In this document: one piece after another, positions 1 through 23,623 of the stretch
How the letters are laid out: the number at the start of each line of letters is the position of its first letter
How positions within the stretch are numbered: position 1 is the first letter of the stretch
Source of the DNA: Gilvimarinus chinensis DSM 19667
Lineage (GTDB): Bacteria; Pseudomonadota; Gammaproteobacteria; Pseudomonadales; Cellvibrionaceae
Direction: 5' to 3'
NCBI RefSeq assembly: GCF_000377745.1
Contig: NZ_KB898708.1
Location: 186,001-250,000 of the forward strand
DNA length: 64,000 nt
Made by a program: the position numbers and the translations under genes
The notes under the pieces: generated by a model
What the model was told of the DNA's origin: nothing
The model's database searches: none
What the model saw: only the letters and a program-made list of their open reading frames with translations

Positions 1-78
1 CCCCAGGTGGACGAGGATGGCTTACTACCCGAAAAAGACGATTACACGATGTCTGTTGGTGTGACCTGGAATTATTAG
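1..78 (+). CDS. 3' end of an outer-membrane beta-barrel-like protein (partial)
   Basis: Frame 1 is open from the first base and stops at TAG 76-78. The 25 visible residues end in alternating polar/hydrophobic residues with a terminal aromatic (YTMSVGVTWNY), which is how the last strand of many outer-membrane beta-barrels ends and is recognised by BamA. The family cannot be named from so short a tail. It could instead be the end of another beta-rich exported protein. Confidence 0.45.
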   Translation, partial: PQVDEDGLLPEKDDYTMSVGVTWNY

Positions 79-153
79 CACCAGATTTTGTACCCGTGTA
101 GGCTAAAGCAAAACCACCACCCGGTTTCAAATCGGTCAGGTTTTTCAGGCAAT

Positions 154-186
154 AAAAAAGCCTACCAGCCGCAGCGGGTAGGCTTT
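154..186 (-). terminator. Rho-independent terminator of the DAHP synthase gene
   Basis: An inverted repeat, AAAGCCTACC at 157-166 and GGTAGGCTTT at 177-186, flanks a 10-base loop. On the minus strand it is followed by a T run (A154-A159 on the plus strand). It lies just after the stop of the minus-strand DAHP synthase. The trailing TTT on the plus side may let it also end the short plus-strand gene at the left edge. Confidence 0.8.
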
Positions 187-208
187 GCAGCCAATAAGCT
201 GTTAACGC

Positions 209-1294
209 TTAAGGGTAGCGTTTTTCCAGCATTGGCTTTATTTTTTCGCGCATAGAGCGAAGCGCTTTTTCGGTAGCGGCCCAATCGATGCAGGCGTCGG
301 TGACTGACACCCCGTATTCTAACTGACTTAAATCTTCTGGAATTTTCTGATTGCCGGCGCCAATGTTACTTTCAACCATTAAACCAATAATGGACTTATT
401 GCCTTCTACGATTTGATTGGCAACATTATCCATAACCAGGGTTTGCAGGTTGTGGTCTTTGTTGGAGTTGGCGTGACTGCAGTCCACCATAATGTTCGGC
501 AAGATCTTCGATTTTTCCAGCTCGTCTTCGCACATGGCAACGCTTACCGAATCGTAATTGGGCTTGCCGTTACCGCCGCGCAAAACCACATGGCCGTAAC
601 TGTTGCCGCGGGTGTGGATAATAGACACTTGACCGTCTGAATTAATGCCCAGAAAACGGTGTGGTTTAGAGACCGATTGCAGGGCGTTAATGGCAACTGT
701 CAGGCTGCCGTCTGTGCCGTTTTTAAACCCTACAGCAGAAGACAAACCACTGGCCATTTCACGGTGAGTTTGCGATTCTGTCGTACGAGCACCAATGGCA
801 GACCAACTGATCAAGTCCTGCAGGTACTGTGGCGAAATAGGGTCCAGCGCCTCAGTGGCGGTGGGCAAGCCCAGTTCGGCAATATCCAGCAAGAGTTTAC
901 GACCAATATGTAATCCTTCTTGAATCTTAAACGAGTCATTCAAATACGGGTCGTTAATCAGGCCTTTCCAGCCAACGGTGGTACGAGGTTTTTCAAAATA
1001 AACGCGCATGACAACATAGATAGTATCACTGACTTCTTCGGCCAGCTTTTTCAGTCGGGCTGCATAGTCCTTGGCGGCCTCAACGTCGTGAATAGAGCAG
1101 GGGCCTATCACTACAAAAATACGGGGGTCTTTGCGATCAAGAATATTGCGAATGGTGGCGCGACCTTCGGTAATTACCGTACGTGCGCTATCGGTCAGCG
1201 GCAGCTCGCGTTTGAGCTCAGCCGGCGAAATGAGCAGCTCTTGAGAGACGACGTTGATATCGTCTACCGCTGCATCTTGAGTATCGTGTGACAT
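209..1294 (-). CDS. aroG: 3-deoxy-D-arabino-heptulosonate 7-phosphate (DAHP) synthase, class I
   Basis: Cytoplasmic enzyme condensing phosphoenolpyruvate and erythrose 4-phosphate, the first step of the shikimate pathway. The 361 residues match the class I AroF/AroG/AroH length (about 350). Visible signatures include the GPCSIHD strand (about residues 64-70), the phosphate-binding RTTESQTHREMASGLS stretch (about 169-184), GFKNGTDG, and the metal-ligand region DCSHANSNK. The ATG at 1292-1294 has an AGGAAA ribosome site 12 bases upstream. Which amino acid inhibits the enzyme cannot be read by eye, so the symbol stands for the family and not for the Phe-sensitive isozyme. The gene is alone, with a strong terminator behind it. 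Confidence 0.9.
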   Translation of the reverse strand: MSHDTQDAAVDDINVVSQELLISPAELKRELPLTDSARTVITEGRATIRNILDRKDPRIFVVIGPCSIHDVEAAKDYAARLKKLAEEVSDTIYVVMRVYFEKPRTTVGWKGLINDPYLNDSFKIQEGLHIGRKLLLDIAELGLPTATEALDPISPQYLQDLISWSAIGARTTESQTHREMASGLSSAVGFKNGTDGSLTVAINALQSVSKPHRFLGINSDGQVSIIHTRGNSYGHVVLRGGNGKPNYDSVSVAMCEDELEKSKILPNIMVDCSHANSNKDHNLQTLVMDNVANQIVEGNKSIIGLMVESNIGAGNQKIPEDLSQLEYGVSVTDACIDWAATEKALRSMREKIKPMLEKRYP

Positions 1295-9057: not shown

Positions 9058-9192
9058 ACTGCTGCTATGTCTCTGATGGTTGGATATTAGCCCCGGCCTC
9101 AGACAAACCTCGGCCTGTGGCACAGCCAGTATTTGATTCTAGTATATTGGCACTGTGACAGCCAAGTGAAACACCCTACAACTGGAAACTGA

Positions 9193-10698
9193 ATGATTGA
9201 AGAGCTAGCCAATATATCAACACCTTTATTGCTGTCAGCGATTGGCGCAGGGGTATTTGTGGGCGCTGTGTTGGTTTACCTTTTATCTTCAAGTAAATTT
9301 AGGCGGCTCGAAGCCAGCTTAATAGACCAACTTAACGAGCAAACCCATCAAAGTCAGTTAAAACAAGCCCATCTGCAATCGCAACTTGAATACAGCGAGA
9401 GCGAGCTGTTAGAGCAAAAAACAGTCAGCCATCAATTAGAACTTGCCCGAGAAGAGTTAAGCCGCAAGTTGTCTGAGCAAAGTTCACTGGTGTCGGGGCT
9501 CAAAGAGCGTTTAGCGCATTTTGAGACGCTGAAGTCCGAGCAGCAAGCACTAGAGCAGCAAGTGATTCGGCTCAGCGAGCAACGATCACAGTTGACGACA
9601 CAGCTAGAAGCAGAACGAGAGAAACTCAACGCTCAAGAAAGCTTACTGGAAAAAACCAAACAAGAGCTGAAAAAGGAGTTCGAGTTAACCGCAAGCAAGC
9701 TGTTCGATCAAAAAAGTGCGCAATTTAATACCTCTAGTCAAAGCCTGCTTGAAGGAGCGTTATCACCTTTCAGGGCTCAGCTGTCGGATTTTCGTAAGAA
9801 AGTCGAAGATGTCTATGAAAAAGAGAACGCCGAACGAAACCGATTAGCAGGACAGATTCATGAGCTGCAAAAGCAGGCTCATAAAATTGGCGAAGACGCT
9901 GTTAATCTCGCCCAGGCGCTCAAAGGCAACAGCAAAGCCCAGGGAGGCTGGGGTGAAGTGGTGCTAGAGCGACTGCTAGAGCAGTCGGGGCTGCAGAAAG
10001 GACGAGAGTATGAAACGCAGCTTAGCTTTACCAGCGAGAGCGGCGCACGCCGCATGCCCGATGTGGTGGTACGCCTACCCGAAGGGAAAGATATTGTAAT
10101 CGATGCGAAAGTATCTTTGACGGATTACGAACGCTACTGCAATAGCGACAATGACTCTGACCGACAAAAATTTCTTCAGGCTCACATACAATCGGTGCGC
10201 AACCATATTAAAGGCTTAAGTGCCAAAGATTACGAAAACTTACCCGGGCTGCGCGCTTTAGACTTTGTGTTTATTTTTATACCCATTGAAGCGGCGTTTA
10301 TGCTCGCCTTACAGCACGATCCAAACCTGTATAAAGACGCATACGATCGTCAGATTATTCTCGCAAGCCCCACAACCCTGCTGGCCATATTACGCACAGT
10401 AGACAATATTTGGCGTTACGAAAAGCAAAACCGAAACGCAGAGAGAATTGCTAAAGACGCTGGCGGTTTACACGATCAGTTTGTGGGTGTATTAGAAGCA
10501 CTTGATCAGCTGGGGCTGCAGCTGGACAAAGCTCGTGAAGCGTATGACAAAACACATAAACGTCTGCATTCTGGTCGTGGCAATTTGCTGCGCAGAGTGG
10601 ACTCCATTCGTCGTTTAGGCGCAAAGACCAAAAAAACCATTGACCCAGCTCTACTAGAAGTCAGTGAGGGCGATGGTGAGGAGAGTTTTGATGAGTAA
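9193..10698 (+). CDS. rmuC: DNA recombination protein RmuC
   Basis: RmuC proteins limit recombination at inverted repeats; the mechanism is unsettled, but the fold contains a nuclease-like core. The 501 residues show an N-terminal membrane segment (about 14-31), a long coiled coil (about 35-170, rich in E, Q, L and K), then the conserved RmuC domain with KAQGGWGEVVLERLLEQSGL, MPDVVVRLPEGKDIVIDAK and the LASPTTLLAILRTV stretch. It is divergent from the TPR gene and overlaps the start of the next gene (ATGAGTAA), so the two form an operon. Confidence 0.9.
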   Translation: MIEELANISTPLLLSAIGAGVFVGAVLVYLLSSSKFRRLEASLIDQLNEQTHQSQLKQAHLQSQLEYSESELLEQKTVSHQLELAREELSRKLSEQSSLVSGLKERLAHFETLKSEQQALEQQVIRLSEQRSQLTTQLEAEREKLNAQESLLEKTKQELKKEFELTASKLFDQKSAQFNTSSQSLLEGALSPFRAQLSDFRKKVEDVYEKENAERNRLAGQIHELQKQAHKIGEDAVNLAQALKGNSKAQGGWGEVVLERLLEQSGLQKGREYETQLSFTSESGARRMPDVVVRLPEGKDIVIDAKVSLTDYERYCNSDNDSDRQKFLQAHIQSVRNHIKGLSAKDYENLPGLRALDFVFIFIPIEAAFMLALQHDPNLYKDAYDRQIILASPTTLLAILRTVDNIWRYEKQNRNAERIAKDAGGLHDQFVGVLEALDQLGLQLDKAREAYDKTHKRLHSGRGNLLRRVDSIRRLGAKTKKTIDPALLEVSEGDGEESFDE

Positions 10699-11155
10699 TG
10701 TAATGGCCGTATTACTTGGGCTGGCCACTTTGGTGATACTTATATTGTGCGGGGTGGCCGTTTATTATCTGCTCCAGCTGCGTCAACTTCGTCGTCGTCA
10801 GAAAAAGCAGATTGAATTACTTGAGCAGCAAGGACTTGAGCAACGTAGCCGTATCAATAACAGCATTCAAGTTATCGCGGCCGCAGCTGAAAAAGATGAG
10901 CTTACCTTAACAGAGGCCAGCATACGACTGTCAGTATTGTTGGATAGCCTAGGTGTCAGTGACTCTGTACGCGAAGAGTTTTCAGCGTTTTATCAATTGC
11001 GCGAGGCTACCGCGCACATCCCCATTCTAGAAGCATGGAAACAATTACCAGCCAAGCAAAAAAAGGCCTTTGACAAAGAGCGTATGCAGCACGAGAAAAC
11101 TTATCGCGAGTTTGTGCTTGATGCGGCTCAGCGCATCAAGCAGCGTAATTTCTAG
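10691..11155 (+). CDS. DUF2489-type membrane-anchored protein
   Basis: About 154 residues: one N-terminal membrane helix (VMAVLLGLATLVILILCGVA), a short basic coiled coil, then a helical cytoplasmic domain matching my memory of the DUF2489 family, which is often found after rmuC. I choose the ATG at 10691 because GAGGAG lies about 8 bases before it and the start overlaps the rmuC stop. The frame itself runs back to 10664. Function is unknown; the overlap suggests a role tied to RmuC. It ends four bases from the convergent trmA stop. Confidence 0.75.
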   Translation: MSNVMAVLLGLATLVILILCGVAVYYLLQLRQLRRRQKKQIELLEQQGLEQRSRINNSIQVIAAAAEKDELTLTEASIRLSVLLDSLGVSDSVREEFSAFYQLREATAHIPILEAWKQLPAKQKKAFDKERMQHEKTYREFVLDAAQRIKQRNF

Positions 11156-11158
11156 GAG

Positions 11159-12244
11159 TTATTTACGCCTTAAGAGAGCACCACACTCAATATGATGGGT
11201 AAAAGGGAACTGATCAAATATGGCAAACGCCTGAATATCGTGACTGCGGCAGAGTTCAGTTAAGTCTCGCTGTAGGGTTTCTGGGTTGCAGGAGATATAC
11301 AATATATTCTCAAAGCGTTTGCAGATATCCGTGGTGTGAGGGTCGAGCCCGGCACGAGGTGGATCAACAAATATAGTACTGAAGTTGTAATCATCCAGAT
11401 CGATATGACGCAAACGACGAAAAGGCCTGACTTTATCCATCGCTTGGGAGAACTCTTCGCTGGACATTCGCGCCAAGGCTACGTTTTCAATGTTGTTCAA
11501 TGCCATATTGTGCTTGGCAGAGTAGACCGAGCTTTTGGCCAGCTCTGTTGCCACAACCCGATTGAAGTTCTTCGATAAGGGCAGGGTAAAATTACCATTA
11601 CCGCAGTAAAGCTCCAATAAGTCTCCGCCTAAATCTTTACTTTTTGCCACCGCCCAGCTCAGCATTTTTTCACAGACACGAGCGTTAGGTTGGGTAAAGC
11701 TGCTTTCAATCTGCTGATAGTGAAATGACTGTTGGTTAACGCTGAGCGTTTCCGTGACGAAATCTTCACTGAGCACAAGCTTTTGTTTTCGGCTGCGCCC
11801 CATAATTTTGATGTTCAGCTGTTGCTGCAGGCTTTCTGCTTGAGCAACCCAAGAGTCATCCAGTTTTTTATGGTAGATCAGGGTTATTAAAGCTTCGCCA
11901 CTTAACGTAGTGAGAAACTCGACTTGGAAAAGCTTACGCCTAAGAAGCTCACTGTTATTGATGGCTTGCAAAAGTAAAGGCATTAGCTTGCCAATAGTTG
12001 CATACCCCTGGGGAAAGTCTTCCACAATATAAGGCTTTTTATACTCTCCCTGACGATACATGGCATAGTGTGCCCGAGTACCCTCGTGCCAAATTTTAAA
12101 TTCGGCACGCATGCGAAAGCCAACAGGTGGAGAGTCATACACCTCAAGATCGGGCAGCTCAAACTGTTTAAATGAAGTTTGTATTTGCTCGACCTTTACT
12201 TGTAACTGTTCTGCGTAAGCCTCGTTGGAAAAAGCTTGTGTCAT
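11159..12244 (-). CDS. trmA: tRNA (uracil-54-C5)-methyltransferase
   Basis: SAM-dependent enzyme making ribothymidine at U54 of the tRNA T-loop. About 361 residues, matching E. coli TrmA (366). Visible are the SAM-binding LLELYCGNGNFTLPL, the PPRAGLD motif, and the catalytic cysteine in YISCNPETLQRDL. It lacks an N-terminal TRAM domain, which favours TrmA over RlmC/RlmD. I start it at the ATG 12242-12244, eight bases after the stop of the lipoprotein gene; the frame extends into that gene without a plausible start. It is last of a three-gene minus-strand operon. Confidence 0.92.
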   Translation of the reverse strand: MTQAFSNEAYAEQLQVKVEQIQTSFKQFELPDLEVYDSPPVGFRMRAEFKIWHEGTRAHYAMYRQGEYKKPYIVEDFPQGYATIGKLMPLLLQAINNSELLRRKLFQVEFLTTLSGEALITLIYHKKLDDSWVAQAESLQQQLNIKIMGRSRKQKLVLSEDFVTETLSVNQQSFHYQQIESSFTQPNARVCEKMLSWAVAKSKDLGGDLLELYCGNGNFTLPLSKNFNRVVATELAKSSVYSAKHNMALNNIENVALARMSSEEFSQAMDKVRPFRRLRHIDLDDYNFSTIFVDPPRAGLDPHTTDICKRFENILYISCNPETLQRDLTELCRSHDIQAFAIFDQFPFTHHIECGALLRRK

Positions 12245-13024: not shown

Positions 13025-14494
13025 TTAATGAAGTAATGGCGGTGGAGAGGGGGAAGCTGTTGAGCTGGATTGCTTAGGCAGCCTCACCGTAAACCGTGTT
13101 CCTTCACCAGGGTTTGATGATACTTCAATACTCCCCCCGTGGTGCTCCGTCACAATAAAGTAGGATACCGAAAGTCCCAGCCCCGTGCCCTGACCAATGT
13201 CTTTGGTTGTGAAGAAAGGCTCAAATATGTGTCTTGCTACTTCTTCGGCCATCCCGGGGCCACTGTCTTCCACTTCTAAAATGGCATCCAGGTCGTTTTG
13301 ACTCAAGGTGATCTTAATCCAGTCTGTTTGGTCAAACTCTTCACCAATCGCTTGCGCGGCATTGCGAACCAGGTTCAACAACACTTGCTGTATCTCAGCG
13401 GCACTCCCCATGATCTGTGGCACAGTATGGTCTAGCACCATACGAATATCGGGCAACTGAGTCCGCTCGGCTGCCAACAGCTCCACCCCATGTCGAATCA
13501 CGTGGGAAAGGTCAAAAGGTCGCTGGGACTGACCGCTGGAGCGTGAAAAGTCCAACATATTGGTCACAATATCAGCGGATCGCTCTCCGGCCTCTCGAAT
13601 ATCCTCCAGGAACTGGGAAATTTTACGCTCGTCCATATACGCTAGAAGGTTATCAAGGGAAATGCTGTGATTTTGAGCTGCCTCGATATTCGCTGTTAAG
13701 GAAGGAGAGATGCGCCTGTAGATGTTCTGCACGCCATGCAAAATAGTGCTTAACGGGTTGTTGATTTCATGAGCCATACCAGCCGCTAACTCACCTAAAG
13801 ACAACATTTTTTCGTTTTGAATCATCATGTTTTCGACACGCACACGCATGGTGACATCATCAATACGAATTACCGCACCAATGGCTTGTACTGCAATAAG
13901 GGGGTAGATGGTTAAATCGCTGTAGTGCATTTCGCCAGCATAGGTTTCTTGGATGTTTTGGCTGGTATACGGGATGCCAGCCTCGATAGTGTCACTGATT
14001 ATGTCGCCATCTACGGGCAGGCTTGGGTAGACATCCTTTAAATGCTTACTGAGAGCATCAGCAGAGTTAATGCCGGTTTTTTCCGTGGCCGCTGCGTTCC
14101 AATGGGTTATAAAACCTCGGTGGGTGACGCCAATAATCACGGAGGGCATAGAGTTAATAATGCTGTGCAGATACTCCTGGGTTTCTCTTAGTAATAGTTC
14201 GGTAGCCTCATGCCGCCCAATCTCTTGATACAGCTGTTCATTGGTGTTGTGCAAAGTCTCTGTGCGGTCATGGACTTTGGCCTCAAGCTCTTTTTGCGAC
14301 TTAAACAGGGCTTGACGAGCATGCTTTAACTTGAGACGGCTGCGCTGCATTCCAATAATGAGCAGCGATTGCAGCAGTAGCAAAATAATAATGGCTACCC
14401 ACAGCCAATCGCGCTCTGACACCGACGCCGAGTCCGCATAAACCGGTGGGGCCAATACGCTTAAAGTGGTCGTAATCAAGACAGAAAATAGCAT
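13025..14494 (-). CDS. Membrane-bound PAS-domain sensor histidine kinase
   Basis: 489 residues: an N-terminal hydrophobic segment or signal peptide (1-20), a membrane helix (31-49), a coiled coil (55-100), one PAS domain (about 104-220), a HisKA domain with the phospho-acceptor His242 in AHEINNPLST, and a HATPase domain with the N box (NLVRNAAQAIGE), G1 (DSGPGMAE), F and G2 (FFTTKDIGQGTGLGLSV) boxes. The sequence style is that of the NtrB/ZraS-like group. No response regulator lies nearby, so it is an orphan kinase in this window. The periplasmic sensing loop is very short, suggesting a signal from the cytoplasm, the membrane or a partner. Confidence 0.88.
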   Translation of the reverse strand: MLFSVLITTTLSVLAPPVYADSASVSERDWLWVAIIILLLLQSLLIIGMQRSRLKLKHARQALFKSQKELEAKVHDRTETLHNTNEQLYQEIGRHEATELLLRETQEYLHSIINSMPSVIIGVTHRGFITHWNAAATEKTGINSADALSKHLKDVYPSLPVDGDIISDTIEAGIPYTSQNIQETYAGEMHYSDLTIYPLIAVQAIGAVIRIDDVTMRVRVENMMIQNEKMLSLGELAAGMAHEINNPLSTILHGVQNIYRRISPSLTANIEAAQNHSISLDNLLAYMDERKISQFLEDIREAGERSADIVTNMLDFSRSSGQSQRPFDLSHVIRHGVELLAAERTQLPDIRMVLDHTVPQIMGSAAEIQQVLLNLVRNAAQAIGEEFDQTDWIKITLSQNDLDAILEVEDSGPGMAEEVARHIFEPFFTTKDIGQGTGLGLSVSYFIVTEHHGGSIEVSSNPGEGTRFTVRLPKQSSSTASPSPPPLLH

Positions 14495-15185: not shown

Positions 15186-16091
15186 ATGGGGGCAATCCTT
15201 ACCTGTATTGCAATATACATTGGCTGCATAGCCTTCGTTCGCACCCGCAACCGGGTCACTTTTCCACTCAGCCGTCAAATGACGGACTTTTCGACTTTTA
15301 TGGTGCCCTTTAACTTGCCGGCTTATGGTTTGAGTAAGGTTCCAACCACTCCTAGAGTTTCTAAAGAGCACTTTCCTGAGCTTCAAATCATCGAGGATAA
15401 CTGGGAGGTTATTCGCGATGAGGCGTTAGCCCTTTACCAGGGGGGGAAGATCACCGCAAAAGACGACTTGCCTGCCAGCAGCTTTTATAAAGATAACCGC
15501 TGGACCAGCTTTTATTTAAAGCTTTATGATCACGAAATTCCGTCTGCCCACGAGCTTGCGCCAAAAACTATGGCGCTGCTTGAACAGGTGCCTTATTTAA
15601 ATTTGGCACTGTTCGCGGTACTCAACCCGGGCAAGAAGCTTAATCAGCATCATGACCCTTTTGCATACACGCTGCGTTACTCGCTAGGGTTGAGCACGCC
15701 TAACAGTGAAAAATGTGGGTTGCAAATCGATGATTTTCATTACCCCTGGCGTGATGGCGACAGCATCATATTTGACGAAACCTACCTGCACAGTGCCTAC
15801 AATGACACGGACACCCCGCGTGTTATTTTAATGACGGATATTGATCGCCCATTGAAACTCGGTTTTGTGCAAAAGGGTTATTGGTACTTTGGACGGTTTT
15901 TTAATCGTCTCTTTATGATTGATAATGTCGACTCGTCACACTCAGGCATTGGCAATAAGCTAGGGCAGGGGTTGCTGGGCTACCAAAAATTCCTCAAGTC
16001 GGTTAAAACGAAAAACCGCCGGTTTTATTACGCGGCAAAGTGGATCATTATTGGCGGCTTACTGCTGTTCATCGCCAGCAAGCTCGTCTAA
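15186..16091 (+). CDS. lpxO: Aspartyl/asparaginyl beta-hydroxylase family protein, LpxO-like lipid A hydroxylase
   Basis: Iron(II)/2-oxoglutarate dioxygenase of the family that includes LpxO, which 2-hydroxylates an acyl chain of lipid A at the inner membrane. 301 residues: an N-terminal membrane helix, the double-stranded beta-helix with metal ligands in HHDPFAYTLRYSLGL and later HSAYNDTDTPRVIL (His plus the 2-oxoglutarate-binding Arg), and a C-terminal membrane helix (WIIIGGLLLFIASKLV). Two terminal anchors are typical of LpxO. It overlaps the convergent pabB by 33 bases. A hydroxylase acting on a peptide or another lipid cannot be excluded. Confidence 0.75.
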   Translation: MGAILTCIAIYIGCIAFVRTRNRVTFPLSRQMTDFSTFMVPFNLPAYGLSKVPTTPRVSKEHFPELQIIEDNWEVIRDEALALYQGGKITAKDDLPASSFYKDNRWTSFYLKLYDHEIPSAHELAPKTMALLEQVPYLNLALFAVLNPGKKLNQHHDPFAYTLRYSLGLSTPNSEKCGLQIDDFHYPWRDGDSIIFDETYLHSAYNDTDTPRVILMTDIDRPLKLGFVQKGYWYFGRFFNRLFMIDNVDSSHSGIGNKLGQGLLGYQKFLKSVKTKNRRFYYAAKWIIIGGLLLFIASKLV

Positions 16092-17571: not shown

Positions 17572-20500
17572 CTACAATTCAGTAATATGCTCGTCGCTGA
17601 TTTCAGTAGCATAATGAGCCAGAATCGTGAGAACGGCATTTTGTAACACCGCAGGTGACTGCTGCAGCAATAGATCAAGGTATCGCCCAGCGGTTGGACT
17701 TTGTTTATTTTCATCCGCCCAATTCTGAGCGGCCTCTTCCAGAAGTCGGTTAAAAGCCAGTGGCTGCTCAAAATAAGCATTAGGATGGCGTTGGCAGAAA
17801 ACAGTAAAAGCCTGCAAAGATTCAACCACAGCACTTTTGTAATAGCTGGGGTGCAATGGTTGGGTGAGCTGATCAATCAACTGCGCAAAACTTTCTTCTC
17901 CCGGAGTCATAGAACTTCTTACAAGCTCGCAGTCGATTTTACCGTCGCTATTGCTATCACCGATAATAAGCGTTTTGGCACAGGCTAAACTTTGCCAAAT
18001 AGCGCTTAAAAAGTTGTCGTCAAAGCGCGTGATAAACCCCCTCGCCAGTCGCCACTCGAACCAATCTGCATCCACAGCGTGAGCATTAATAGCATCACTG
18101 CCACTCAATGACTGCGGCTGCTCGACGTTGTGAACAAAGCTACTGGCAATGCCTTGCGAGAACACCTTGCGCTGTGAATCAAACACTTTTCTGAGGCGTT
18201 TATACAAATAAACGGGGGGCTGACTGGCCAGCCACTCTATAGGGGATTCAGTGTTAGATTGGTCAAAGTGGGAGCAGAGCATCATAAAATTATGCAATTG
18301 AATTGAGCGGACACCTTCAAACAAATAGGGTTGTGTACGAAGTAGGGCGCCGACTGCAATAATCACCTCTTGAGCAAGCGAACGCTCTAAGGGGTCATTA
18401 AAAACACCGTCCAGGCCATCCAGAATTTCTTGATTACTTAGGCCCGATTGAATCATTAACTCAGACTCTGCCGTTTCTCCAATGGCTATTTTAAGGTGCC
18501 GAGCCGCCAGCAGCGTTAAGCTGTCGGCAAGATCCTGATGACCGTGACCTAAATACGCAAAACATAATCGACACAGCGCCCAGCGGTTGTTGTGCCGTGC
18601 ATACTGGTAAATATCCTCAAGCACCTCCGCAACCGTGTGCCCCCCACCAGCATCCTCCGATAATTTGCAGGCATCAAGAATGCCAGTAAAACCCTGACGC
18701 AGCTCAGAAGCATTCGCGTTACTAATGGCATAGTCGTGCAACTTTGTGAACTGAGCGTGCAGCGTACCCGTGTCGATACCCGGGTGTGTGAGCACCTGAC
18801 TATGGGTGCTTTTCAGGGGTACAAGAGAAAAGTCAGGCAGGGTGAGTTTGGTAACCCGAGACGCGCGTACAGCTAAACTAGCCGATGCGTTTCCGACATG
18901 CTCATGGGTATTGCGCAGCTGTAAATCGCGCAATGTGCGGAAGAACTTCTCCGCATTTGGAATATTGCAGATACTGGCATTAACCTTCAGGGTGAACACC
19001 GCCACTTCTGCATCGGTCCAATGCTTGCGAATATGAGAGATTTCAGTGATTAATAATTCGCTGAGAAACTCGGAATCATACAGACGATAATCAAATGCTT
19101 CACTCTGCAGCCAGGATAAACATAAACAAGCCTTGCCGTTAATTCGGTAAGTATGAGAGGTTGCCAGACTTTGCAGCCGGCGTCTCGGGCGCCCACTCAA
19201 CCCAAGGGAGGGGTTGGCCCCCACTTGAGTAAAGGCCTCCATCAAATGGGGTGCAGAAATAACATTTATAGGTTTTATATCCTCTAGTGACTCGGTGATT
19301 ACGCCGTTATGCGACAGGGTATTTTTAACGTCTTCATTTTCGGCCAGTACCACCAGTGCAATCTGGGCTTGAGAAAACCGTGTCGAACGCCTGCGAATAT
19401 GCAACGGATCAAGGTCAGTCGTGGTTACATAACCCTCATCCAGTAACAGACCGGTATAAAAGAGGCTTTGTGCCCAGACCAACGGAATATTTTCATTAGG
19501 TACGCGTGCTTGTGAGCGTGGCTTTTTCTTTTCCGCTGCAATGGACTCTTGGGGCAAATAATACAGCTCTGGTATAAGTCCGACACCCCCTTTACGTACC
19601 ATCAAAGCTTCAATTTTGCGCCGATAATGATTGGCCGTAGTGTCCAGTTCATCAAACAGCGCATTGAGGTACAAAAAACAATAAAAGAGCGGCCACTCAG
19701 ATTCAATGTGCTCAAAGGTCGCCAGCTCAGAGTGTTCGTAATAAAGCCTGGAGCTTTCTTCTATCGCCGTTTGGTGTCCATCCCACAAAAATCGTTTGCA
19801 GCCAAAATTACCACCGAGCTTTGACAATATGGTATCGCGGGTTTTGGTGAGCAACTCCTGACGGCCTACGGCAAAAGCAGGAAACCCGATGACAGAGAGT
19901 AAAGCGCTGTCCACTTCTTTCGATAATGACTCTCGGGGCAATAGAGCACCCAGAGTATTGCGGGCCAGGGAAACCGCATCCGGTATTACGTGTATCACCG
20001 CACGACGGCTCGCATTGGGGCCAAACAGATTTAGTCCGTCTAAAGCTTGCATGGCTGCTTTGGCCATCCCTACTGAGCTGGCATTAATTTCGGTTAGACC
20101 ATTGTTGATTTTATTACCTCGCTCCCAAATACCAAAATCAGGAGTACGGTAAGCGCTGGAGATGTAGTAAACCAGGTTTTGTACAAAATCCACCTCACTA
20201 CCAGTACACACAATACGTAGGCCTGAAGCAGACATCTGGGCGAGTAACAACAAAAAGATAGACGTAGCGTCGATTTGCAAATGACCCCAGGCATCATCGG
20301 CAACGACGGGCAACCCGCTCGCGGTATCATATTTGGCGTGCAGGGCGTCAAGGGGCGCTAACGTGTGTTTGAACTTTTCGACTTTATCGGCTTGACGCAT
20401 CATAGATTGAAGCAAGCCGCGCATCAGTTTTATACAAGCCTGATTTAAGAGGTCTTGGCGCTCTTGCTGGCCCGCACGCCCCATGGCAATGCCCAGTGAC

Positions 20501-20673
20501 CACACGCAGATAATCGAATAGACGTTATCCCGCACCCAGGCATCGGTATAATTGCCATGGCTGGTAATGGCTGTGCTTGCAGGCAGCAAGCCGGTTACTG
20601 GATGCTGTCTTTCAAGAACGACTTGTTTTACCTCTTGGTAAATACGCTCCAGAGTATCGTTTTGCCGTTTCAT
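17572..20673 (-). CDS. GH15-like protein closely resembling phosphorylase b kinase alpha/beta subunit
   Basis: 1033 residues. The N-terminal (alpha/alpha)6 GH15-like domain carries stretches almost identical to those of animal phosphorylase kinase alpha: AWVRDNVYSI, KLMRGLL, RQADKVEKFK, LDALHAKYDT, WGHLQIDATS, DFGIWERG and NASSVGMAKAA. The C-terminal half (for example VAEVLEDIYQYARHNNRW, LLRTQPYLFEGVRS) also resembles the regulatory region of that subunit. In animals it regulates glycogen breakdown and may retain glucoamylase-like sites; the bacterial role is unknown. No protein kinase, glycogen phosphorylase or glycogen gene is adjacent. It is a single gene with no signal peptide, so cytoplasmic. 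Automated annotation would probably call it a GH15 glycosidase. Confidence 0.8.
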   Translation of the reverse strand: MKRQNDTLERIYQEVKQVVLERQHPVTGLLPASTAITSHGNYTDAWVRDNVYSIICVWSLGIAMGRAGQQERQDLLNQACIKLMRGLLQSMMRQADKVEKFKHTLAPLDALHAKYDTASGLPVVADDAWGHLQIDATSIFLLLLAQMSASGLRIVCTGSEVDFVQNLVYYISSAYRTPDFGIWERGNKINNGLTEINASSVGMAKAAMQALDGLNLFGPNASRRAVIHVIPDAVSLARNTLGALLPRESLSKEVDSALLSVIGFPAFAVGRQELLTKTRDTILSKLGGNFGCKRFLWDGHQTAIEESSRLYYEHSELATFEHIESEWPLFYCFLYLNALFDELDTTANHYRRKIEALMVRKGGVGLIPELYYLPQESIAAEKKKPRSQARVPNENIPLVWAQSLFYTGLLLDEGYVTTTDLDPLHIRRRSTRFSQAQIALVVLAENEDVKNTLSHNGVITESLEDIKPINVISAPHLMEAFTQVGANPSLGLSGRPRRRLQSLATSHTYRINGKACLCLSWLQSEAFDYRLYDSEFLSELLITEISHIRKHWTDAEVAVFTLKVNASICNIPNAEKFFRTLRDLQLRNTHEHVGNASASLAVRASRVTKLTLPDFSLVPLKSTHSQVLTHPGIDTGTLHAQFTKLHDYAISNANASELRQGFTGILDACKLSEDAGGGHTVAEVLEDIYQYARHNNRWALCRLCFAYLGHGHQDLADSLTLLAARHLKIAIGETAESELMIQSGLSNQEILDGLDGVFNDPLERSLAQEVIIAVGALLRTQPYLFEGVRSIQLHNFMMLCSHFDQSNTESPIEWLASQPPVYLYKRLRKVFDSQRKVFSQGIASSFVHNVEQPQSLSGSDAINAHAVDADWFEWRLARGFITRFDDNFLSAIWQSLACAKTLIIGDSNSDGKIDCELVRSSMTPGEESFAQLIDQLTQPLHPSYYKSAVVESLQAFTVFCQRHPNAYFEQPLAFNRLLEEAAQNWADENKQSPTAGRYLDLLLQQSPAVLQNAVLTILAHYATEISDEHITEL

Positions 20674-21120: not shown

Positions 21121-21606
21121 TTACTGCAAGGTGTGTAGACGTTTTTCTTCTAGTGCCAGCATGAGCTGCATCCAGTAATCCACCTGAGCAATCGGTTTAA
21201 AGGCAACGTCAAGTAACGGGGCCAGCTGTTTTTGGGCGCGGCTTAATGAATAATGGGGTTCTAGTTGCCGCTTCACCACTTCGATTAATTCATCAATATG
21301 AATCGAATGCTGAGCCTTTCGGCACACGTAAATTAATTCAAGAGAGAGCTTCAAATACTGTTCAATATCCGCCGGAGAAACCGTATTTTGCTGAAGCAGG
21401 GTTTCGGTGCTCTCCAAAGCCGTTCCCAAAATCGGAATTGCCTTACTCCACTGGGAGGAACATACTGCCTGGCGACCCTCGAGGTGTAAGCGTTTAACCA
21501 GCGCTCGGCAGCGAGTTGAGTTGTTACACGCCAGAGCCTTGTGTCTGGCGCAAAGAAAGGCGTTTTTGGGGTTATGCGGCGTTGGCACTGGCGTATTCCG
21601 CAACAA
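21121..21606 (-). CDS. Helical protein of unknown function, paralogue of the OrfX-like protein next to fumC
   Basis: Up to 161 residues and highly helical. It aligns by eye along its whole core with the protein at 23174-23623: IEQYLKLSLELIYVCRK versus IERYLRAALELIYAMRK, and LLDVAFKPIAQVDYWMQLML versus LIDVAFSPIRDVDDWVCLLL. The open frame begins at TTG 21604-21606 inside the flavodoxin gene (35-base overlap). The real start is uncertain (GTG at 21586-21588 is another choice) because no ribosome site stands out. Translational coupling to the flavodoxin and a shared iron-stress role are inferred. Confidence 0.65.
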   Translation of the reverse strand: MLRNTPVPTPHNPKNAFLCARHKALACNNSTRCRALVKRLHLEGRQAVCSSQWSKAIPILGTALESTETLLQQNTVSPADIEQYLKLSLELIYVCRKAQHSIHIDELIEVVKRQLEPHYSLSRAQKQLAPLLDVAFKPIAQVDYWMQLMLALEEKRLHTLQ

Positions 21607-23173: not shown

Positions 23174-23623
23174 TTAATGGGGCATACTCTGGCCTGAGTT
23201 TTCGTAACTGAGCAACAGGCAGACCCAATCGTCCACATCGCGGATAGGTGAAAAGGCAACGTCAATCAAGGGTGCTATAACGGCCTCGGCAGGCATCGGC
23301 GCTAACAATGGCTGCAATCGCTGCTTGATGGTGTCGATAAGCTGGCTTACATCCGTTTCCGGTTTGTACTTACGCATAGCGTAAATCAATTCAAGAGCCG
23401 CACGTAAATAACGCTCAATGGCAAACTTTTGCGTGGCTGGGTCCATTAACATGGTGTCGGCAACCTCCAGCGCCGTGGCATAGTCTTTCACCGCCAGCCC
23501 CCACTGTTGCGCTTGTAAATGCTTACGTGCTTTTGTTTGTAACCGGCAGCCGAGTACACCCGCCTCTAAGGGCTGCTGCCAGTAGGCTTGTGAAGACGAG
23601 TGTGTTGTTGTTGATTTATCCAT
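23174..23623 (-). CDS. OrfX-like protein encoded after fumC
   Basis: 149 residues, all-helical, with no signal peptide or membrane segment. It follows fumC by nine bases, so it is co-transcribed. In Pseudomonas the iron-regulated fagA-fumC-orfX-sodA operon has a small protein of unknown function in the same place, and I infer equivalence from context only. It is a paralogue of the protein at 21121-21606: the C-terminal core LIDVAFSPIRDVDDWVCLLL and the helix IERYLRAALELIYAMRK are shared. No sodA follows here. Confidence 0.75.
   Translation of the reverse strand: MDKSTTTHSSSQAYWQQPLEAGVLGCRLQTKARKHLQAQQWGLAVKDYATALEVADTMLMDPATQKFAIERYLRAALELIYAMRKYKPETDVSQLIDTIKQRLQPLLAPMPAEAVIAPLIDVAFSPIRDVDDWVCLLLSYENSGQSMPH

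Follow-up and report, generated by a model that had tools for sequence, protein, structure and literature searches.

The alpha and beta subunits of animal phosphorylase kinase (PHKA and PHKB) are large proteins whose glucoamylase-like part has remained puzzling. A 2024 cryo-electron microscopy paper (PMC10978961) names Glu185 and Glu371 of human alpha as a catalytic pair, yet could detect no activity towards maltose, isomaltose or glycogen, says that the role of the domain needs work, and states as open why PHKA has a glucoamylase domain with a seemingly intact active site that is nevertheless inactive. The same paper ascribes a C-terminal CaaX farnesylation motif to human alpha and beta, contacts with the kinase N-lobe to K588 and Y593 of alpha, and contacts with adenosine diphosphate (ADP) to R211, Y213, R214 and R274 of beta. 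For the enzymes of glycoside hydrolase family 15 (GH15), subsite -1 of dextran dextrinase has been described as comprising Tyr535, Trp540, Arg542 and Asp543, with a Tyr in the same loop of other GH15 enzymes (PMC12446779). Here we analyze a PHKA-like gene of Gilvimarinus chinensis DSM 19667, which lies in a 64,000-nucleotide stretch of contig NZ_KB898708.1 (positions 186,001 to 250,000, the window), and argue that its product is probably a cytosolic GH15 exo-hydrolase that acts on glycogen or maltodextrins and feeds glucokinase.

The open reading frame is genuine, with an ATG start and a product of 1033 aa (Table 1). A preliminary description of this DNA had pointed to long stretches matching human PHKA almost word for word, and these could be located at residues 45-54 (AWVRDNVYSI), 129-138 (WGHLQIDATS), 179-186 (DFGIWERG) and 197-207 (NASSVGMAKAA), three being identical in human PHKA1 and one differing by a single residue (WGHLQLDATS). 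Its further claims, that the similarity goes far past that among ordinary GH15 proteins and continues into the C-terminal region of PHKA, were borne out as well. A phmmer search of the Protein Data Bank (PDB) returned PHKA1 with an expectation value (E) of 6.3e-153, which rules out a chance match, and PHKB with 2.3e-119, and no other sequence at E<=1. A profile built from 58 bacterial members scored 1032 bits to PHKA1, which it meets in three stretches reaching the C-terminal region, and 859 bits to PHKB; in the PDB it likewise met no ordinary glucoamylase at E<=1, neither the GH15 glucoamylases nor the isomaltose glucohydrolase (1lf6, 5z3 series). Within one chain, a GH15 domain (Pfam Glyco_hydro_15, 237.3 bits against a cut-off of 22) is followed by a KPBB_C domain (E 1.2e-25), both above the Pfam cut-off, whereas no NCBIfam model matched. 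In a structure model, residues 1..1025 align to PHKA 4..1219, a full-length match to the D1-D5 fold. Best matches confined to ordinary glucoamylases, with the C-terminal region of PHKA uncovered, are thus clearly not what these searches returned.

The claimed closeness to the animal protein holds, although the source-genome protein is among the more diverged members of the family. Over the aligned parts it is 34.5% identical to PHKA1, compared with 47.5% for a cyanobacterial member; for D1 alone the values are 50.9% and 65.0%, so that the cyanobacterial domain is nearer to PHKA1 than PHKA1 is to PHKB (47.4%). Compared with GH15 glucoamylases, the bacterial protein adds about 600 residues of D2-D5 type that align to the phosphorylase kinase subunits, and compared with PHKA and PHKB it is shorter (1033 aa against 1223 aa for the human chain record) and lacks features linked to the animal complex. 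A CaaX-type Cys at position -4 occurs in 0/96 bacterial rows of our alignment (93 distinct sequences, as three genomes were reached twice, with Marinomonas over-represented; 58 of the 96 rows entered the profile and structure job), and the source-genome protein ends in HITEL. Neither K588 nor Y593 is kept: the source-genome protein has D and N, the bacterial rows are mixed, and human beta has A and I. The source genome yielded a single match to the PHKA-like protein, and hence no separate beta-like subunit was seen. While the Pfam models for KPBB_C and GH15 already hit bacterial members, making the homology visible in public models, we found in the mostly open-access literature no published function for the bacterial family, no comparison of its active site and no link to glycogen genes; the first 300,000 of the 445,374 characters of the review PMC11046441 make no mention of 'phosphorylase kinase'.

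The residues equated with human Glu185 and Glu371, E184 and E369, are identical in 96/96 bacterial rows, with a Lys at the second position in human beta. Equally invariant across all rows are W46, R48, D49, W129, W183 and W400 as well as H39, G40, Y42, N395, P397 and L398. Near-invariant columns are concentrated in D1 (139/424), compared with 8/183, 4/266 and 8/93 in those three later regions where more than one column was usable. Together with the retained Glu, Tyr, Trp, Arg and Asp residues, this distribution is what a conserved catalytic pocket would show. The spacing of W46, R48 and D49 (W-x-R-D) equals that of Trp540, Arg542 and Asp543 in dextran dextrinase (PMC12446779), and Y42, four residues before the Trp where Tyr535 stands five before, may by analogy be equivalent to the subsite -1 Tyr of GH15 enzymes.

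When the human proteins are compared at 138 near-invariant D1 positions, alpha retains 123 and beta 93. Seven of the 15 alpha departures fall into two groups at the presumed walls of subsite -1, and the other eight are scattered. The first group lies in the loop before AWVRDN (T34, H39, G40 and Y42), where PHKA1 has a six-residue gap just ahead of the region of residues 39-46 and Gln39 replaces Y42; the second surrounds the NxPLxW motif (N393, N395 and L398, with K397 and H400 in human alpha). The active-site loops are thus intact in the bacterial protein, whereas human alpha shows a gap and substitutions there. We propose that the alteration of these two loops explains the dead human D1, and predict from the alignment that the bacterial domain is active. 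As a single-chain homologue, the bacterial protein allows a direct comparison for the question raised by the human structure: an active enzyme is predicted, and two loops emerge whose alteration could account for the inactive human domain.

The gene surroundings were compared at 95 loci, namely the source locus and 94 relatives (three genomes twice; L062, which has no closed gene, was left out), with flanks that are shorter where contigs end and gene families assigned from representatives. GlgB, a second GH13/CBM48 gene, presumably of debranching type, MalQ (GH77) or glucokinase lies within the covered flanks at 48/95 loci. Directly adjoining the PHKA-like gene on the same strand are GlgB at 30/95 loci, glucokinase at 14 and MalQ at 4, and KDPG aldolase, Edd and Zwf occur in the flanks of 6, 5 and 4 loci. 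The 48 marker loci comprise 27 of Marinomonas/Maribrevibacterium, two more (L100, L101) that stand beside them in the tree, and 19 elsewhere. Among the loci listed, glucokinase precedes the PHKA-like gene in Saccharospirillaceae and follows it in Campylobacterota and Halothiobacillaceae.

Carriage of the gene is scattered: it was found in 8/398 genomes sampled evenly across the source phylum, in 17/58 near relatives, in 11/377 genomes from the phylum of G496, a Campylobacterales metagenome-assembled genome (MAG), and in 1/14 named controls (Synechococcus elongatus, which carries KPBB_C). A strong match to glycogen synthase (E below 1e-40) is present in 17/17 carriers and 17/41 non-carriers of the 58-genome set (19/41 when two weak matches are counted; Fisher 1.6e-5 without them, kinship uncorrected). 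Within Gilvimarinus, all six carriers have glycogen synthase and both non-carriers lack it. In the second phylum the figures are 11/11 carriers and 55/366 non-carriers (Fisher 2e-9, kinship again uncorrected), and among 52 carriers chosen by hand, of which at least two also belong to the 58-genome set, 50 possess it, the exceptions being G285 and G492 (a MAG of 1.9 Mb).

This tight co-occurrence and the glycogen-type neighbourhood with GlgB, MalQ and glucokinase make a different substrate or outcome for this GH15 protein unlikely, be it hydrolysis of alpha-1,6 bonds (isomaltose, branches) or of trehalose, or retaining transglucosylation as in dextran dextrinase, although the linkage cleaved is not fixed thereby. 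Glycogen synthase in nearly all carriers and a directly adjoining GlgB would also suit a part in glycogen synthesis instead of breakdown, for example chain trimming or priming with GlgB. We consider this very improbable, since glucokinase and Entner-Doudoroff genes alongside the gene in many relatives point to the use of released glucose and since G285 carries the gene without a glycogen synthase match.

The source genome itself possesses glycogen synthase, GlgB, a GlgC-type gene, MalQ, a GH57 enzyme and glucokinase. The statement of the preliminary description that no glycogen gene is adjacent stands for the eight neighbours scanned in the window, but the absence is only local: the contig carries a glycogen cluster beyond the window, at a distance of about 56-65 kb from the gene, in which MalQ, GH57 and the GlgC-type gene share one strand and GlgB and GlgA occupy the opposite one. 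The glucokinase gene is located elsewhere, apart from it. In this cluster (L119:2351-6989, minus strand, contig C3) the GH57 gene sits between MalQ and the GlgC-type gene, and phosphorylase is absent.

The target that animal phosphorylase kinase would suggest was not detected in this organism. No match to phosphorylase (PF00343) was obtained in the source genome, in five other Gilvimarinus carriers or in G412. These seven are without a match among the 17 synthase-positive carriers of the 58-genome set (the other ten comprise 8 strong and 2 weak matches), compared with 0/17 synthase-positive non-carriers (11 strong, 6 weak; Fisher 0.007).

The preliminary description had left open whether the protein is a glucoamylase, a sensor or a regulator. 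The retained active site, the GlgB or glucokinase neighbours in many relatives and a source genome without detectable phosphorylase favour an enzyme that hydrolyses glucan in glycogen metabolism rather than a protein that regulates phosphorylase, and we predict that branching, debranching or GH57 enzymes together with MalQ would shape the glucan, whose non-reducing end the pocket of the D1 barrel would accept. E184 would then protonate the glycosidic bond while E369 activates water, glucose would be released, and glucokinase would turn it into glucose 6-phosphate, several relatives co-encoding Entner-Doudoroff genes; domains D2-D5 presumably serve assembly or sensing. A location in the cytosol is suggested by the lack of an obvious signal peptide on direct reading of the protein sequence; catalysis, substrate and physiological role are likewise predictions. 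Such a hydrolytic route from glycogen via glucose to glucose 6-phosphate may run in bacteria without phosphorylase. In its predicted role the protein resembles the GH15 glucoamylase of Sulfolobus, a mutant of which has a glycogen phenotype consistent with a catabolic role (review PMC11046441), whereas the same review describes archaeal GH15 and GH57 enzymes as secreted for starch use.

Several observations weigh against this assignment. The inactive human alpha subunit has the same two Glu residues, no measured activity of a bacterial member was found in the mostly open-access literature, and the structure model has a predicted local distance difference test score (pLDDT) below 50 at residues 183-192, that is, at the predicted catalytic acid. 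None of the four marker genes is found at 47/95 loci, including all seven Gilvimarinus loci, and the neighbours scanned at the source locus include no glucan gene. The PHKA-like gene need not be the sole glucan route, because the source genome has other candidate glucan enzymes (MalQ, GH57 and GH13 matches). Of the seven carriers without phosphorylase in the 58-genome set, six belong to one genus, so that they amount to about two independent events. A phosphorylase-family match is present in 44/52 hand-chosen carriers, those free of PF00343 being three Marinomonas, a Saccharospirillum, G158, G285 and two small MAG genomes, and a substitution for phosphorylase is not repeated in the second phylum, where a match, in most cases weak and short, was obtained in 65/66 synthase-positive genomes, among them all 11 carriers. 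Finally, G285 (100% complete) carries the gene in a glucan run and has neither a glycogen synthase nor a phosphorylase match. At this locus (L099, around 9168-12116, with the genes upstream) the run consists of GlgB, a second GH13/CBM48 gene, MalQ and the PHKA-like gene.

The phosphorylase matches outside Gilvimarinus, the full-length architecture shared with PHKA and PHKB, the inactivity of human D1 alpha despite both Glu residues (PMC10978961) and a DUF4032 protein with a weak kinase-fold match near the gene in four Saccharospirillaceae loci (scanned at one of them) would all suit a role without catalysis, in which the protein, like its animal counterparts, would serve as a glucan sensor or regulator and act on glycogen phosphorylase or a different glycogen enzyme, perhaps by way of a kinase encoded elsewhere. 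This is hard to hold in Gilvimarinus, whose six carriers have no detectable phosphorylase, and it is weakened elsewhere by the absence of the CaaX motif and of the two kinase-contact residues. Moreover, the pocket is conserved more strongly across bacteria than in human alpha, and no Ser/Thr kinase or calmodulin-like family was found among the eight window neighbours and 30 neighbours of relatives, the whole genome not having been searched for Ser/Thr kinases or EF-hand proteins. We therefore regard a purely regulatory role as quite unlikely and retain the hydrolase assignment. With respect to the size of the phosphorylase-family genes in the second phylum, a longer kind (about 700-790 aa) occurs in 0/11 carriers and 15/55 synthase-positive non-carriers, the carriers having a kind of 546-570 aa (one copy cut off at 292 aa); as two Campylobacterota carriers of the hand-chosen set (G491, G492) do have the longer kind, this pattern is weak.

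A scan of genome contigs found 139 relatives, of which the best 80 were kept, so that distant members are under-sampled. These 80 include Cellvibrionaceae, Alteromonadaceae, Colwellia, Marinomonas, Saccharospirillaceae and Halothiobacillaceae as well as Campylobacterota, cyanobacteria and a Bacteroidota MAG. Named Gilvimarinus genomes encode proteins with 72-82% identity to the source-genome protein. Searches of 72,556 plasmid and 50,697 phage records gave no match at E 1e-5, so that nothing points to carriage on mobile elements. Recent acquisition from an animal was rejected, as the family is deep in bacteria and the source protein groups with those of Gilvimarinus and other Cellvibrionaceae. 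In trees of 50 bacterial rows (full alignment) or 38 (D1), which are unrooted, contain one eukaryote and were midpoint-rooted for drawing only, human alpha and beta group with five cyanobacterial rows (98 by the Shimodaira-Hasegawa-like approximate likelihood ratio test, SH-aLRT, for the full alignment; 100/97 for D1), and alpha pairs with beta (99 SH-aLRT; 97/78 for D1, under the threshold of the tool). PHKB and L099 form long branches, and for D1 a clade of the five cyanobacterial rows apart from all other rows is rejected (p-AU 0.04, approximately unbiased test), which makes their branching beside the human rows unsure. With unrooted trees and one eukaryote, a bacterial origin of the eukaryotic subunits is only suggested; it would place the origin of a central animal signalling complex in a bacterial storage enzyme.

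All four ADP-contact residues of human beta are kept in 42/96 bacterial rows on distant branches, comprising at least 28 Marinomonas kin, four Saccharospirillaceae, Beggiatoa, a Chromatiaceae MAG, L071, L104 and all five cyanobacteria, while human alpha has A, Y, K and H and the source-genome protein S, Y, R and L at these positions. The stretch partly adjoins the catalytic motif, and its conservation may thus have other reasons. Tentatively, and with considerable doubt, the bacterial family could be seen as a present-day representative of the protein from which both subunits descend, a glycogen glucoamylase gated by nucleotides and uniting the sugar pocket of alpha with the ADP site of beta; after entry into eukaryotes and duplication, alpha would have kept most of the pocket and lost two active-site loops, and beta would have lost the pocket and kept the ADP site. 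On this reading the source-genome protein would have lost the putative site, and if the site is real, bacterial proteins join what alpha and beta later split.

Table 1. Features of the PHKA-like gene, with positions in the window
Feature	Position	Strand	Remark
PHKA-like gene, whole, 1033 aa	17572..20673	minus	
D1, GH15-type catalytic domain, residues about 1-420	19414..20673	minus	
Residues 39-46 (H39, G40, Y42, W46)	20536..20559	minus	Presumed subsite -1 wall; shortened in human alpha
R48-D49	20527..20532	minus	Presumed contacts of bound glucose by analogy with PMC12446779; R is Q in human beta
DFGIWERG, residues 179-186	20116..20139	minus	Predicted general acid E184 (human PHKA Glu185)
LIPELYY, residues 366-372	19558..19578	minus	Predicted general base E369 (human PHKA Glu371; Lys in beta)
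NxPLxW motif, residues 395-400	19474..19491	minus	N395 and L398 are K397 and H400 in human alpha
KPBB_C domain, residues 808-991	17701..18252	minus	Pfam PF19292, 90.5 bits against a cut-off of 27

At the source locus the gene is preceded by a small open reading frame and a flavodoxin gene and followed by pabB. Further downstream of pabB lie genes for an LpxO-like aspartyl/asparaginyl hydroxylase (15186-16091, plus strand) and a PAS-containing two-component histidine kinase (13025-14494, minus strand); among the loci compared, only the seven of Gilvimarinus share pabB and the LpxO-like gene. Two proteins of 161 and 149 aa (21121-21606 and 23174-23623, both minus strand), which form one similarity cluster and have no Pfam match, flank the flavodoxin and a YceI-like gene, with relatives in three other Gilvimarinus loci. 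In Halothiobacillaceae (L080:6859-7797, counterparts in L070 and L077; Pfam on L080 only) an Hsp33 gene is directly upstream of the PHKA-like gene and glucokinase downstream. The DUF4032 protein of Saccharospirillaceae (L050:14889-16280, counterparts in L041, L043 and L045; Pfam on L050 only) has a weak match to the Kdo/APH kinase fold, and at three of these four loci its gene is accompanied by one for a MalK-like ABC ATPase.

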